Source: Candidatus Eiseniibacteriota bacterium
Lineage (GTDB): Bacteria; Joyebacterota; Joyebacteria; Joyebacterales; Joyebacteraceae
Reading direction: 5' to 3'
Assembly (NCBI GenBank): GCA_030595835.1
Contig: JAUVLG010000005.1
Span: 1 to 57,336 of the forward strand
Length of the DNA stretch: 57,336 nt
A program made the position numbers and the translations under genes. Under the pieces are notes generated by a model. The model did no database searches, was not told where the DNA came from, and was given only the letters and a program-made list of their open reading frames with translations. Positions 24,804-31,033 of this stretch are shown here, piece after piece. Position 1 is the first letter of the stretch, and every line of letters begins with the position of its first letter.

Positions 24804-27800
24804 GTGACCGCATTCTCCCACCGCACGCGCTCTGCTTTCGCCTCCATTCTGCTGGTGGTCGCTCTCGTCTGTGCAGGGGCTACCACCGGTGTGGCGCGCC
24901 CGCCCGAACCACCCGCCCAAGCCGGGCGTATCCCCCTGGCAATGGAGCAAGGTAGAGTCGCGGTCCCGAGCTGGGACTCACGGCCTTCGAGATCTGAGGG
25001 CGTGGCGGTGCACGGCCACGGACCGGACGAACTCCTACGCCGCACCCCTCCCGATTCCCTCATCACGGCCCTGATGGACTCCACGAGCCTGACCAGGATC
25101 GTCGGCACCATCCAGCGGCTTCAGGACTTCGGCAGCCGCTACGTGGTGGTCGATTCCTGCTGGGCGGCAGGCTACTGGATCCGGGACCGATTTGAGGAGT
25201 ACGGCTACGCCGATGTGCGCCTTGACACCTTTCGAACGATGTCGTTCCAGGACAGCGTCCCCGCCATGAACGTCATCGCCATCAAGGAGGGGACGACGCG
25301 ACCGTCCGAGTACGTTGTGCTGGGAGGACACTACGACTCTGTCAACGTGGAGAATTTCTACGACCCGTTCGCCGTTGCTCCCGGCGCCGACGACAACGCG
25401 ACCGCCGTGGCCGCCGTGCTTGAGGCGGCCCGCCTGCTCAAGGACGTGCCCACCGACCGGAGCATCATGTTCGCCTGCTGGTCCGCAGAAGAGGTGGGGC
25501 TGTGGGGCAGCCGGCACTTCGTCGCCGAGGCGGTCGAGGAATCGCTCGACATCGTCGTCTATCTCAATATGGACTGCCTCGGGTACATCGAGCCACCACC
25601 CAGTGAGGCTCCGGTGATCGTCTTCACCGACTCCCTCTCGTTCGCCATCGCCGGATACATGCAGACACTGGCGCACGCCCACACGCAGTACGAGCTTCAA
25701 ACCTGCGTCCGCCCCATTGGCGCGAGCGACCACACGAGCTTCTGGGAGGCCGGGTACAACGTCGTCGACATGGGCACAACTATCGCGTCGCCCTACCGTC
25801 ACACCGCCGAGGACATCCTCGACAACCTGGATCCCGACTTCGCACGGGCGCTTGCCGCGGTGAACGTTGCCGCCACGGCCGCCGTCGCCGGTGTGACCGG
25901 AGAGGACGCCAACCTGCCGCCCGAAACCGTGCGCGTCGCCAACTGTGCGGCGTCCGCATCACCGGTCACCATGCGGCCGACGTTCGAATGGGACGGAGTG
26001 GACTTCGATGGGAGCGTGGCCCGGTATGAGTACGCGGTCGAATCCGACATCGACACCAGGGACGGGGCACGCCGCGACCGGCCGCTCGATTGGACGCCGC
26101 TGCCCGCGCACCAGACGTCGTTGACGCTCGAGGATCTGAGTGAGGGCGCACACGTGCTCCACGTCCGCGCGATCGACGACAGGGACGTCGCGGACCCATC
26201 ACCCGTGGTTTATGTGTTCATCACGGACTCGTCGCTCAACCCTCTGCTCACCGTGGACCTGAACTTCCAGCCAGGGACACGGACGTTTGTCGGGCAATGC
26301 GCCGGAGACCGCACCCTTCCGGCCGTCGTCTATGAGAACGAGAGGCTTGTCTTCACGATCGTCGCCGATCCGTCCTCGTACTGCGGCTCGTCGGACTCGG
26401 TCGCGGTGGCCGTCGCGGACTCAGCGGCGTGGTCGGAATGGCACCGGTCACCGTACGAGTTCGTGCTGCGCCCCGGACCAGCGGACACGGTCGTGTTCCT
26501 GAAGACCCGCGATGAGAACGGCGCCGTCACCACCGGACGCGTGTCACTGCGCACCGTTCCCTCGCCCATGGACCGTCCCCTCCTGCGCGTGGACGACTGG
26601 TTTGTCAGCGAGGTTCCGGATGAAACCACACATGACGCGTTCTACAGCGATGTCCTCGCGGGTGAGAGCTGCGACGTCTGGGACCCGTTCGAGCACATCG
26701 AGAACTACGTGCCCACGCTGCCCCCGATGGAAGAGCTGGGTCGATACCGTACCGTGCTCTGGACACTGGACTGGCGAGGCGGGTTCCTCCGCCCGGTGCA
26801 AGCGGAAAGCAGTTATCACTACCTTGAGGGATTCGTGAGAGCGGGCGGGAACGTCATCCTGGAGGGGCAGTCCTCACTGTGGACGATGTGCGGCGCGGAC
26901 CAGTACCTGTACGAAACCACCTACGAACCCGGCGACTTCATCTTCGACCACGTCGGACTCGACAGCCTGAGAAACGCCGGAGTGGGCGCGAACGCATCGT
27001 ACCCTTCGGGGTACGGCTACGCGTTCCTGGGCGGGATCGCCACGGAGACCGGAGGCTTTCCCGACGTTCCGGTCGACACGCTGGGGAAGTGGGCCGACGG
27101 CTACCAGGCTTACGGCGGCCTTCCATACTGCGAGGTCGTGCGACCGCTCGAGCAGACACGAACGCTCTACCTCTTCGACTCGCACATCAATCCTGATTTG
27201 AGCGAGCGTCCGTGTGCCACGGTGCGGTACCCCGACGACGGGACCGGCACCTTCGCCTACTTCGGGTTCCCCCTCTACTACCTACAGACCGACCCCGCCA
27301 AGGAGATGCTGGGGCTGCTGCTCGACTCGATGGAGAGCTGGCAGGAGCCGGCCGCACTGTCCTCCTTCGTCTGGGAAGCGGCGCCGGACTCCGTCACGCT
27401 GTCTTGGTACCTGATGCCAGCCGGCGGTCCCCTGGGGTGCAGTCTCGAGCGGACGGCAGGCAACGGCTCCGACGAATACCACGCACTCAGCGACAGCCTC
27501 CTGCGACCAGGTGCCGACGGACGATACCGGTTCGTCGATGGATGGGTCGCGGCGTCAACGACATACTCGTACCGCCTCGTCGTCTCCGAGCAGTGGGGCG
27601 TGACCACGATGCACGGTCCGTGGGAGATCCAGACGCCCAGCTCGCGAGTCTCCCCGTGGCTGGAAGACCCCAGGCCTAATCCTTTCTCAGAGACACTCAG
27701 CCTCCACTACGGCGGCCCGGCGGATCACGGGCGGGTGTGGGTAGGCGTGTTCGATGTCGCAGGCAAGCTGGTAAGAGCGCTGCACGAGGGAACGGCCCGG

Positions 27801-27929
27801 ACGAGCGAGTACCACGCTACCTGGGACGGGACCAATGAACACGGCGACGCCGTCGCCAGCGGTGTCTACTTCGTCCGCCTGTGTGTGGGGCCTGAGACGC
27901 TCGAACGCAAGGTAGTGCTCCTGAGATAA
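24804..27929 (+). CDS. Secreted M28-family metallopeptidase with FlgD-like C-terminal domain
   Basis: A 1041-residue exported peptidase. Residues 1-31 are a signal peptide. The M28 catalytic domain (about 80-355) shows all zinc-ligand blocks: GGHYDS, PGADDNATAVA, CWSAEEVGLWGS, LNMDCLGY and ASDHTSFWEAGY, so two zinc ions and the catalytic Glu are present. An FN3-like domain follows (MRPTFEWDGVDFDGSVARYEY), then a middle region of unknown type, and a C-terminal FlgD-like Ig domain with DPRPNPFSE, VFDVAGKLVR and WDGTNEHGDAVASGVYFVRL. That last domain is frequent at the end of secreted proteins in FCB-type phyla and may serve sorting or surface attachment. The GTG start has a GGAGGTGA site five bases upstream. 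It is probably an aminopeptidase acting outside the cell on peptides. Confidence 0.9.
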   Translation: MTAFSHRTRSAFASILLVVALVCAGATTGVARPPEPPAQAGRIPLAMEQGRVAVPSWDSRPSRSEGVAVHGHGPDELLRRTPPDSLITALMDSTSLTRIVGTIQRLQDFGSRYVVVDSCWAAGYWIRDRFEEYGYADVRLDTFRTMSFQDSVPAMNVIAIKEGTTRPSEYVVLGGHYDSVNVENFYDPFAVAPGADDNATAVAAVLEAARLLKDVPTDRSIMFACWSAEEVGLWGSRHFVAEAVEESLDIVVYLNMDCLGYIEPPPSEAPVIVFTDSLSFAIAGYMQTLAHAHTQYELQTCVRPIGASDHTSFWEAGYNVVDMGTTIASPYRHTAEDILDNLDPDFARALAAVNVAATAAVAGVTGEDANLPPETVRVANCAASASPVTMRPTFEWDGVDFDGSVARYEYAVESDIDTRDGARRDRPLDWTPLPAHQTSLTLEDLSEGAHVLHVRAIDDRDVADPSPVVYVFITDSSLNPLLTVDLNFQPGTRTFVGQCAGDRTLPAVVYENERLVFTIVADPSSYCGSSDSVAVAVADSAAWSEWHRSPYEFVLRPGPADTVVFLKTRDENGAVTTGRVSLRTVPSPMDRPLLRVDDWFVSEVPDETTHDAFYSDVLAGESCDVWDPFEHIENYVPTLPPMEELGRYRTVLWTLDWRGGFLRPVQAESSYHYLEGFVRAGGNVILEGQSSLWTMCGADQYLYETTYEPGDFIFDHVGLDSLRNAGVGANASYPSGYGYAFLGGIATETGGFPDVPVDTLGKWADGYQAYGGLPYCEVVRPLEQTRTLYLFDSHINPDLSERPCATVRYPDDGTGTFAYFGFPLYYLQTDPAKEMLGLLLDSMESWQEPAALSSFVWEAAPDSVTLSWYLMPAGGPLGCSLERTAGNGSDEYHALSDSLLRPGADGRYRFVDGWVAASTTYSYRLVVSEQWGVTTMHGPWEIQTPSSRVSPWLEDPRPNPFSETLSLHYGGPADHGRVWVGVFDVAGKLVRALHEGTARTSEYHATWDGTNEHGDAVASGVYFVRLCVGPETLERKVVLLR

Positions 27930-28018: not shown

Positions 28019-28047
28019 TTGACCGTGCCCCCACCTGCTGGTATATT
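28019..28047 (+). promoter_or_regulatory. Sigma-70 promoter of the DUF364-like / decarboxylase pair
   Basis: TTGACC (28019-28024) and TATATT (28042-28047) are 17 bp apart and TGG precedes the -10 (extended -10). The predicted start at about 28054 leaves a leader of about 48 bases before the GTG at 28102. Confidence 0.65.
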
Positions 28048-28101
28048 GGCGACTGACAGAACACCCGCTCGTCCGTGAACCATTGAAGCTTGGGAGACAA
28101 C

Positions 28102-28908
28102 GTGACTCTGCTCGAGCAGATAGCCGAGACCGGAAGAGAGAAGAGCAAGGACTACCCCGACGAGCCGTTTCTCATCCGAGGACTCTGGCGCACCGATCTC
28201 CTGTTCCGGCCCAACCCGGAGGAGCGGACGTTCAACTACACGTACCTCCTGATACAGACCGTCGGCGAGGGCGCATGTTACTGTGCAACGATACCCGCGC
28301 TGACCGAGGGGTTCTCGCTTCTCGGCAAGGATTGCAGGAGTGTCCGACCGGAGTACCGATGTTTCCAGGTCGCCACGGCCGACGCGATGTTCTCCGCGTT
28401 CGAGAAACAGCCGGACGAGACCATGACCATGACCGGCTCCTCGGACGACAAGGCGCTGTGGCGAAGCCGCATAGTGGTCGACGAGGTCCTGAGACAGCTC
28501 GAGCTTGCCGGCGTGGACGACGGCTGCGTGGTCAATATCGGCGCCATAGGCAACATCATCAAGATGCTCACAGCGGAGGGCATTGAGGTCACCGGGACCG
28601 ACGGAGACCCCACTCTTGTCGGAACCGAAATAGGCGGCGTGCCCATCGTCGACCAGGACAGGACGCTCGAATACATCGAGAAGTGCGACGTCGCCGTGAT
28701 GACGGGTATGGTCATCTCCACCGACTCGCTGGAGGAGATCCTCGACGTGGCGAGAAGAAACGAGACGCGGCTCGTGATGTTCTGTGAAACGGGCGCGCAC
28801 CTTTGTGAGGAGTACGTGAAGCTCGGCGTCGACTGCGCCATCGCCGAGTACTTCCCCTTCTACATATTCGGCGGCACCACGCGAATAGACGTCTTCAGGA
28901 AGAAGTAG
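28102..28908 (+). CDS. Rossmann-like protein resembling the DUF4213/DUF364 family
   Basis: A 268-residue cytoplasmic protein with no signal peptide. The N-terminal half (GEGACYCATIPALTEG, then VATADAMFSAF) resembles the DUF4213 part and the C-terminal half a Rossmann-like fold (VVNIGAIGNIIKMLTAEGI, CDVAVMTGMVISTDSLEEIL, LVMFCETGAHL). DUF364 proteins have been proposed to act in heavy-metal chelation. The protein has nine cysteines, unusually many for its size, which could fit metal binding. The GTG start at 28102 has GGGAGA six bases upstream; a TTG at 28090 is less likely. It is followed after 22 bases by a LysA-type decarboxylase under one promoter. Similarity is judged by eye, and the true function is unknown. 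Confidence 0.6.
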   Translation: MTLLEQIAETGREKSKDYPDEPFLIRGLWRTDLLFRPNPEERTFNYTYLLIQTVGEGACYCATIPALTEGFSLLGKDCRSVRPEYRCFQVATADAMFSAFEKQPDETMTMTGSSDDKALWRSRIVVDEVLRQLELAGVDDGCVVNIGAIGNIIKMLTAEGIEVTGTDGDPTLVGTEIGGVPIVDQDRTLEYIEKCDVAVMTGMVISTDSLEEILDVARRNETRLVMFCETGAHLCEEYVKLGVDCAIAEYFPFYIFGGTTRIDVFRKK

Positions 28909-28917
28909 CAATCAGAC

Positions 28918-28924
28918 AGGAGGT
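28918..28924 (+). promoter_or_regulatory. Ribosome-binding site pointing to a CTG start
   Basis: AGGAGGT is a full Shine-Dalgarno match placed six bases before CTG at 28931. The next in-frame candidate, ATG 28970, is 45 bases away from it, and no GTG, TTG or ATG lies between in this frame. Confidence 0.7.
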
Positions 28925-28930
28925 AACACT

Positions 28931-30229
28931 CTGTTCAGGAATTTCACTGAGACCGACGGAGTCCTCGAGATGGGCGGCGTCGCGATCACGACCATCGTCG
29001 GCAAACACGGGACGCCGATGTACGTCTACGACGGCGACATGCTGTGTTCGCGCTACGACGCGCTGACGAGCGCGTTCCCATCCTTCGAGATCTTCTACTC
29101 GATGAAGGCGAACCCGTCGCTCGCCCTTGTGGGACTTCTGAGACAGATCGGCGCAGGGTCCGAGATCGCGTCCGGCGGCGAGCTCTTTCTCGCGAAGGAG
29201 CTAGGGCACGACCCGCTGGACATTGTGTTCGCGGGCCCGGGCAAGACCGACCGGGAGCTCGAGGACGCGATCATCTCTGGCATATATGCGATCAACGTCG
29301 AGTCACTGAGAGAACTTGAACGTGTCGGCCGCATCGCGAAGCTGATCGGCATCCCCGCGCGGGTGGCTCTCAGGATCAACACGACCGTCGGGCTATCCAA
29401 ATCCGGCGGTGGATCGGCCGGCCCTCTACACGAGCGGATGGCCGGAGGCCCCAGCAAATTCGGTATCGACGAGGAGAAGCTGGACGCGCTGACGGAGCAC
29501 TGGGACAAGCGCGCGGTCGAGATCGTGGGTATCCACGTCTACACGGCCAGCCAGATCCTGGATGCAGATGAGATCGTGGAGAACGCGCGGCGCACGGTGG
29601 CCGTCGCGGAGCACGTGGAGGGCATTATCGGTGAGCCGCTGGTGGCCATAGACTTCGGTGCTGGATTCGGCGTCCCCCACTACGAGGAGGAAGTACCCCT
29701 GGACCTGCCGGCGCTCGGCGCGAGTGTAGAGGATGTGTTCAAGCCGTTCTCCGAGCGCAAGAACATGAGGCTCCTTCTAGAGCTGGGCCGATACCTCGTG
29801 TCGGAATGCGGCGTCTTCGTCACGAGGGTCATTGAACTCAAGGAGTCCAGGGGAGAGCGCTTCGTTATTACCGACGGCGGGATCAACCAGTTCGTCCGCC
29901 CCGTGCTGATGAAGGTCAAACATGAGGCGCGTGTGATAAGCAGGCTGTGCACAGCGACGCCGACAGTAGCGAAGCTCTCGGGGCCTTTGTGCACGCCGAT
30001 CGACATCACCAGCGAGCAGATCCAGGTCCCGGAAGACATCGCTCTTGATGACCTTGTCGGTATCTTCAACGCGGGCGCCTATGGATTCTCGATGAGCCCA
30101 CAGCTCTTCCTGTCGCACCCCTCGCCCGTGGAGGTGCTGGTGCTGGATGGGGAGATCATTGAAACGCGAAGACGTGGGACGTATGAGGATTTCCTGTTGA
30201 AACAGAACCCTCTTCCCGGCTCAGTGTAG
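28931..30229 (+). CDS. Type III (alanine-racemase fold) PLP-dependent decarboxylase, LysA/BtrK-like
   Basis: A 432-residue decarboxylase with the fold of diaminopimelate decarboxylase. Signatures: HGTPMYVYD, FYSMKANPSLAL with the PLP lysine, GSEIASGGEL, the HVYTASQ segment, ELGRYLVSECGVFVTRV, LSGPLCTPIDI with the active-site Cys, and FNAGAYGFSMSPQLF. The internal block AGGPSKFGIDEE resembles the subgroup acting on carrier-bound or small polyamine-like acids (BtrK-like and exosortase-associated enzymes) more than classic LysA. I take CTG at 28931 as start because of the perfect ribosome-binding site, and because residues from there, such as GVLEMGGVAI, match the conserved N-terminus. Its substrate is unknown; it shares a promoter with the Rossmann/DUF364-like gene. 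Confidence 0.85.
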   Translation: MFRNFTETDGVLEMGGVAITTIVGKHGTPMYVYDGDMLCSRYDALTSAFPSFEIFYSMKANPSLALVGLLRQIGAGSEIASGGELFLAKELGHDPLDIVFAGPGKTDRELEDAIISGIYAINVESLRELERVGRIAKLIGIPARVALRINTTVGLSKSGGGSAGPLHERMAGGPSKFGIDEEKLDALTEHWDKRAVEIVGIHVYTASQILDADEIVENARRTVAVAEHVEGIIGEPLVAIDFGAGFGVPHYEEEVPLDLPALGASVEDVFKPFSERKNMRLLLELGRYLVSECGVFVTRVIELKESRGERFVITDGGINQFVRPVLMKVKHEARVISRLCTATPTVAKLSGPLCTPIDITSEQIQVPEDIALDDLVGIFNAGAYGFSMSPQLFLSHPSPVEVLVLDGEIIETRRRGTYEDFLLKQNPLPGSV

Positions 30230-30280: not shown

Positions 30281-31033
30281 ATGATGCGCAGAATCACGCC
30301 ACTGGTTGCCGCGGCCACCGCCCTGGTTCTCCTCTCGGCCGGTTGCTCCGATGACATCATGTGCCCGGAGGTGGAACCAGTAGACACCACGCCCTATATC
30401 TCGGCACAGGTCGTGCAGAGCTCGGATGGCCCAGACGGGTCGACTCACGTGGAGATCGTCTGCACGGCCGATCCGCTGCCGTCGCTCCTCATCGCGTTCA
30501 TCAACGGGCGCACGTTGCCCCTGGCAGAGCCTCAGGACGACCTGGGTCTTCTTGCCGTCCTTGATGACGACCTGGTGCTGTGGCAACCCGGAACCCTGTG
30601 CTCTCTCGAGGTGACCACGAACTACGGCTACGCAGTCGCGGCGGAGGTCGCGCCGGCCGCGGCCACCGTGACGGCGCCTGCTGAGATCTCTCTGGGTGAC
30701 ACACTGAAACTCACCTGGAGAAGCGCGGCGGACGTCGACTACTATGAGGTGTCGGCCGTCCTGATCTCCGATGCCGGCGCGCCAGTGTTCAGTGCCCCGC
30801 GCAGCCGCGACACGCTCGCGCTGTCGGTGACCACTCGCGACACCTTTGCGGTGTTTCTCCCGGAGAGCATCGTTTCGGCCGGTGTTGTGTCGGGTCTCGT
30901 TATGACCGTGGCCGGACCGTTTCCAGAGAGCGGCGCTGCCGGGAACATCTCGGGGGATGGCTGGGGGTTCCTCTCGCTTCGATATCGGGATTCCGGGAGC
31001 GTCTTCGAGGTGATCGTTTCGGACGTGCCGTAG
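30281..31033 (+). CDS. Lipoprotein of unknown function
   Basis: A 250-residue predicted lipoprotein: MMRRITPL, a hydrophobic core and lipobox LSAGC around residue 22. The mature part is rich in beta-strands with repeated Ala/Val/Asp segments and one stretch (WRSAADVDYYEVSAVLIS) that could be an FN3- or Ig-like domain. No catalytic motif is seen. The ATG at 30281 has GGAG seven bases upstream; a second ATG follows directly. It lies 51 bases after the decarboxylase in the same direction, so it could be part of that operon or read from an unseen promoter. It converges with the following minus-strand lipoprotein, leaving 53 bases between the two stops. Confidence 0.65.
   Translation: MMRRITPLVAAATALVLLSAGCSDDIMCPEVEPVDTTPYISAQVVQSSDGPDGSTHVEIVCTADPLPSLLIAFINGRTLPLAEPQDDLGLLAVLDDDLVLWQPGTLCSLEVTTNYGYAVAAEVAPAAATVTAPAEISLGDTLKLTWRSAADVDYYEVSAVLISDAGAPVFSAPRSRDTLALSVTTRDTFAVFLPESIVSAGVVSGLVMTVAGPFPESGAAGNISGDGWGFLSLRYRDSGSVFEVIVSDVP

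Follow-up and report, generated by a model that had tools for sequence, protein, structure and literature searches.

A conserved two-gene unit of uncultured bacteria pairs a DUF364-like protein with a putatively new clade of PLP decarboxylases

Two protein families provide the closest described counterparts of the locus reported here. The first is that of the alanine-racemase-fold PLP decarboxylases, to which LysA belongs: in LysA, an acidic residue placed after the catalytic cysteine binds the side-chain amine of the substrate, while the distal carboxylate is bound by an arginine in the specificity helix, R343 in the M. jannaschii DAP decarboxylase (PMC7857480). The second is DUF364, whose members enclose a pocket between two domains, one enolase-N-like and the other Rossmann-like; their C-terminal domain resembles Rossmann methyltransferases but is devoid of the SAM-binding GGSGG loop, and a metal-handling role was put forward from gene context, as a proposal only (PMC2954201). 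Our search of the literature on DUF364/DUF4213 found no function reported beyond that work.

We analysed a window (the whole stretch of 57,336 nucleotides) of a genome which is 98.5% complete (G000). The comparison took in five more genomes of its genus and, for the Eisenbacteria phylum, 20 genomes in all; outside this phylum, 386 genomes were scanned. Those relatives of the locus that bear a name are MAGs of Candidatus Eisenbacteria. The window contains two consecutive genes, called A and B in what follows (Table 1), which an earlier note on this DNA had described as one transcription unit behind a good promoter. This unit is real: between positions 27850 and 30400, where 0.5 sigma-70-like sites are expected, one was found, and other genera (L007, L008, L010) have a TTGAC/TATATT pair at the matching place in front of gene A. 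In most of the phylum the pair is flanked by the same two genes, one encoding a peptidase and the other a lipoprotein-like product.

Table 1. Positions of the pair, of its flanking genes and of related loci (window coordinates unless a locus is named).
Feature	Location	Strand	Remark
M28 peptidase with FlgD-like C-terminal domain	24804-27929		Upstream flank in most of the phylum
Sigma-70-like promoter, TTGACC-17-TATATT, TG before the -10	28019..28047	+	Only promoter-like site there
Gene A, putative DUF364-like two-domain enzyme, 268 aa, GTG start	28102..28908	+	
Shine-Dalgarno sequence GGAGGT for gene B	28920..28925	+	GGAGG-type sequence precedes the CTG in Eisenbacteria copies
Gene B, putative alanine-racemase-fold PLP decarboxylase, 432 aa, conserved CTG start	28931..30229	+	
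Lipoprotein-like gene without Pfam match	30281-31033		Downstream flank in most of the phylum
Decay of gene A in genus g5, B intact	L080 321-807; L079 about 1025-1084; L077 and L078 upstream of B		
DUF1749-like hydrolase by a hydantoinase-like gene, away from A/B, Eisenbacteria	L149 7892-11484; L147 1602-3901		L149 also with preA-like gene
First cluster type with a relative of A	L156 3952-11851; L157 6041-11802; L158 6155-12837		Actinomycete plasmids
Second cluster type with a relative of A	L159 7673-14270; L170 6664-12964; L073 2783-8141		

The lists of open reading frames put the start of gene B at the ATG at position 28970, which encodes a methionine that is not conserved among relatives. 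We place it instead at the CTG at position 28931, on the grounds of homology, of the Shine-Dalgarno sequence and of the conservation of the codon itself, as the same aligned codon is CTG in the window and in 19 relatives, that is, in 20/20 Eisenbacteria copies. Chance was rejected as the origin of this conservation: in 20 other invariant leucine columns of the gene, 23% of the codons are CTG and no column is entirely CTG, a comparison which does not amount to a probability given the kinship of the 20 copies. Functional initiation at CTG is the simplest reading. The conservation of such a start throughout a phylum is unusual, and its strictness shows how genes of this kind come to be mis-started by annotation.

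The association of the two genes was then followed across genomes. Gene A is intact in 16 of the 20 Eisenbacteria genomes and gene B directly follows it in 16/16, while gene B is present in all 20 (split over two contigs in G012). Gene A is damaged or lost in genus g5: it carries an internal deletion and a change of frame in G013, is reduced to a C-terminal remnant in G012, and was not found in G011 and G014. Since gene B stays intact in this genus, it can work there without A, which is therefore not strictly required for B. Conversely, the pair is intact in G016, although neither of its usual neighbours was found around it.

Outside the phylum, the scan detected two genomes with a full-length A, G153 and G285, and a third, G350, which encodes a more remote version. 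In the phylum of G153, A has B beside it in 7/8 genomes; in G285 the operon reads A, a membrane protein, a member of the DUF1749-like hydrolase family, B; and the two genes lie 53 nt apart on a contig of uncertain origin (G396). In the genomes of the phyla of G153 and G285 which have no A, no gene of the B clade was found either. Weak matches to A in G083 and G354 were discarded, as they reflect a Rossmann (Rex-like) similarity only and a true LysA is encoded elsewhere in the genome. Hence, A and B form a conserved two-gene unit, shared by three or more groups of uncultured bacteria that are distant from one another; the co-occurrence on which the earlier note made its proposal depend is found in 16/16 Eisenbacteria loci, in 7/8 genomes of the second phylum, in the operon of G285 and on the doubtful G396 contig.

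A gene for a DUF1749-like hydrolase lies directly upstream of A in 7/7 loci of the second phylum (it is partial at L109). We considered an obligate unit of three genes and rejected it, because the Eisenbacteria relative of this hydrolase adjoins hydantoinase-like genes and, at some loci, preA-like ones. Beside the Eisenbacteria pairs we saw no gene for a synthetase, a carrier or a transporter.

Judged by its sequence, A is a distant member of DUF364, as the earlier note had supposed. It scores 27.0 bits against the Pfam model (PF04016, gathering cut-off 23) over its C-terminal half only, its relatives score 25.6-47.2 bits, and a profile search matches it to the DUF364 structure 3npg (E=8e-4). 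The AlphaFold model is good in the C-terminal half only; Foldseek ranks 3npg second for this low-confidence model (265 columns, TM 0.44, N-terminal pLDDT <50). Thirteen residues are invariant over 21 relatives: G57, C59, G75, D94, G112, R121, G147, D167, G202, M203, G231, E249 and P252. The protein of the window has 9 cysteines in 268 aa, and had been presented as a cysteine-rich protein akin to a proposed heavy-metal-chelation family. Most of these cysteines vary: C59 alone is invariant in the 21 relatives and C87 is kept in the 15 proteins linked to B. Cysteine content is therefore no argument for metal binding, and we abandoned the identity of a cysteine-rich metal binder for A.

The closest A-like proteins outside the clade of the pair are encoded in siderophore-like clusters of actinomycetes and of G350, and form a separate clade (support 100/100). 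The first type of cluster, on actinomycete plasmids, combines iron ABC transporters, the DUF364 protein, an SbnA-related PLP enzyme and an MFS exporter, with a GHMP kinase in 2/3; we know of no product for these plasmid clusters. The second type combines an ATP-grasp protein, the DUF364 protein, an SbnA-related enzyme, an MFS protein and a methyltransferase, to which the two actinomycetes add dipeptide epimerase and ABC transporter genes. The ABC importers near these relatives of A (in actinomycetes and G350) are of the iron or peptide kind. Such clusters support a chemistry of amino-acid conjugates for the family of A.

Gene B encodes a protein with both Pfam domains of the alanine-racemase-fold PLP decarboxylases (Orn_Arg_deC_N, 131 bits; Orn_DAP_Arg_deC, 62 bits), with a catalytic Lys59 in the motif SMKAN, a Cys354 in GPLCTPID, and the motif RPVLM...H. 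The GGPSKFGID block on which the earlier note insisted is present at residues 172-180. The best PDB match is BtrK (253 bits), ahead of the best DAP decarboxylase (220 bits). Against the NCBIfam models, B of the window stays below each cut-off: 291.8 for lysA (TIGR01048, cut-off 297.9), 340.8 for TIGR03099 (cut-off 478.45) and 73 bits for FslC (cut-off 500). The B proteins of G153 and G285 exceed the lysA cut-off (310.9 and 307.3) and would therefore be named LysA automatically. In a maximum-likelihood tree of 36 sequences, the A-linked B proteins form a single clade (support 94/92), whose sister contains BtrK and plasmid-borne enzymes (100/97), and a 100/98 branch separates both from LysA. This places the decarboxylase outside the ordinary LysA clade, a point on which the earlier note had staked its proposal, and on this phylogenetic evidence B is a separate, new clade of PLP decarboxylases.

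The active site differs from that of LysA. All 15 B sequences of the A clade read CTPID or CTPLD where LysA has CE[ST]xD, so that in the window Thr355, next to the catalytic Cys354, occupies the position of the acidic residue of LysA; the LysA-type arginine is kept (residue 323). Read from the alignment, this combination predicts a substrate with a distal carboxylate but without a free amine on its side chain, and suggests a conjugated amino acid.

Our preferred explanation, which we hold tentatively, is that A and B catalyse successive steps in one undescribed small-molecule pathway, B acting on a conjugated amino acid. This amino acid would bear on its side chain a distal carboxylate, held by Arg323 as the counterpart of R343 of M. 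jannaschii, and B would remove its alpha-carboxylate; the substrate would be an N-acyl- or N-carboxyalkyl-diamino acid conjugate, similar to those of SbnH and FigC. With less assurance, A, as a putative DUF364-type enolase-N/Rossmann enzyme with the invariant residues C59, D94, R121, D167 and E249, may make or trim the conjugate, and decarboxylation may yield a primary amine that serves within the cell or as a metal ligand. We count in favour of this explanation the adjacency of A and B across phyla, the linkage kept in G016, the joint absence of A and of B-clade genes from some genomes of the other two phyla, the residue roles described for LysA (PMC7857480), the separation of the B clade from LysA and the SbnA-like enzymes, MFS exporters and iron or peptide ABC importers which adjoin relatives of A; we count against it the loss of A in genus g5, the lack of an adjoining synthetase, carrier or transporter gene in Eisenbacteria, and the scores of B near the lysA cut-off.

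These last scores lead to another explanation, which we consider rather unlikely: B would be a DAP decarboxylase in the role of LysA with a remodelled active site, and A an accessory or an unrelated co-transcribed gene. In 20/20 Eisenbacteria genomes, no decarboxylase of the alanine-racemase fold other than B was found; DapF is present in 19/20 of them, with no ordinary LysA; LysW was found above the curated cut-off in 0/20; and in the genome of the window, dapA and dapB were confirmed as neighbours of dapF, these dap genes being read from single stretches of genome. This means that either lysine is taken up or B fills the LysA step. The persistence of B where A is lost and the retained Arg323 agree with such a role, as do the G153 and G285 proteins above the lysA cut-off. 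It is opposed by the CTP[IL]D motif of every A-linked B and by the position of B in the tree, and it leaves the linkage of A and B unexplained. Moreover, genomes of the G285 phylum without the pair are also without ordinary LysA, so that its absence there is not tied to the pair.

In that phylum (G148, G392-G395 and G397-G399), distant relatives only of the ordinary LysA-type decarboxylase were found; those which we read have CMPWD or CDSFD, and one genome has none.

A secreted, amino-acid-derived metallophore made by the pair is also unlikely in our opinion. The siderophore-like clusters around the nearest relatives of A outside the pair clade speak for it, and SbnH and FigC show the decarboxylase fold doing such chemistry (PMC7857480). 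On the other hand, nearly every member of its family has the unit, it is adjoined by no exporter, importer or NIS/NRPS gene, and the A proteins of the clusters fall in their own clade. Only by analogy with these clusters might the family of A have a metallophore role; the small amino-acid-derived metal ligand of the earlier note stays plausible to that extent.

The neighbours of the sister clade raise the question of a carrier. The plasmid-borne enzymes of this clade mostly adjoin genes for an acyl carrier protein and an AMP-ligase (nine loci), CTPxD occurs in almost all of them as in B, and BtrK is the best structural match; B could then be a carrier-protein-dependent decarboxylase of the BtrK/exosortase-associated type, the aminoacyl-ACP being made elsewhere in the genome. 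In the carrier-linked clade, however, the arginine is lost and the specificity loop is changed and often longer, whereas B keeps the LysA-type arginine, has no such changed loop and does not reach the TIGR03099 cut-off. No ACP or AMP-ligase gene was seen beside A-linked copies in the neighbourhoods which we read. The carrier-bound substrate evoked in the earlier note is thus not borne out, and we find a carrier-dependent B quite doubtful.

Least probable of all is a scheme like the one put forward for MccD/MccE in microcin C, where A would act as a SAM-dependent aminocarboxypropyl transferase and B would decarboxylate the group which A has added: the related decarboxylases include MccE (PMC7857480; PMC10491745), the C-terminal domain of DUF364 has its methyltransferase-like shape and the invariant acidic D167 of A follows a glycine-rich loop, but the family is without the SAM-binding loop and A matches no methyltransferase family in Pfam, NCBIfam and profile searches.

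Returning to the pathway of consecutive enzymes, one can imagine, as an improbable extension, an undescribed amine or lysine route of several candidate phyla in which A would conjugate or mask a diamino acid (e.g. DAP) at its distal amine and B would decarboxylate the masked acid. If true, it would explain why these genomes have genes of the DAP pathway without an ordinary LysA. Automatic pipelines may give the name LysA to the new subclade of B and in this way conceal the lack of a lysine step across entire candidate phyla.

Finally we must compare the unit with the known systems. A shares with DUF364 (PF04016; Dhaf4260, 3l5o; PH1506, 3npg) a C-terminal Rossmann-like domain above the Pfam cut-off, and its low-confidence model aligns with 3npg over nearly the full length; it differs by its weak Pfam score, by an N-terminal half which Pfam does not match, by motifs of its own (GxCY, TGM, ExFP) and by its partner, a decarboxylase instead of a metal ABC transporter. 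A DUF364 subfamily thereby gains a defined, testable partner and chemistry, in a family whose function has been open since the 2010 structure. B has the fold of LysA, its specificity-helix arginine and a score close to its cut-off, but CESxD has become CTPID and the clade is separate. With the BtrK/exosortase-associated enzymes (TIGR03099), B has in common the fold, the CTPxD loop, a similar FG-[IF]-D block and the joint branch in the tree, but neither the carrier or ligase genes alongside, nor the changed loop, nor a sufficient score. SbnH and FigC, the citryl-amino-acid decarboxylases, would share with B the predicted logic of a conjugated substrate and a missing acidic residue by the catalytic cysteine (PMC7857480), whereas the similarity in sequence is low, as the FslC score indicates, and no NIS synthetase lies beside the pair. 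Taken together, the DUF364 subfamily and the new decarboxylase clade constitute a conserved unit of two enzymes, hitherto undescribed, with a putative function in a small-molecule pathway.
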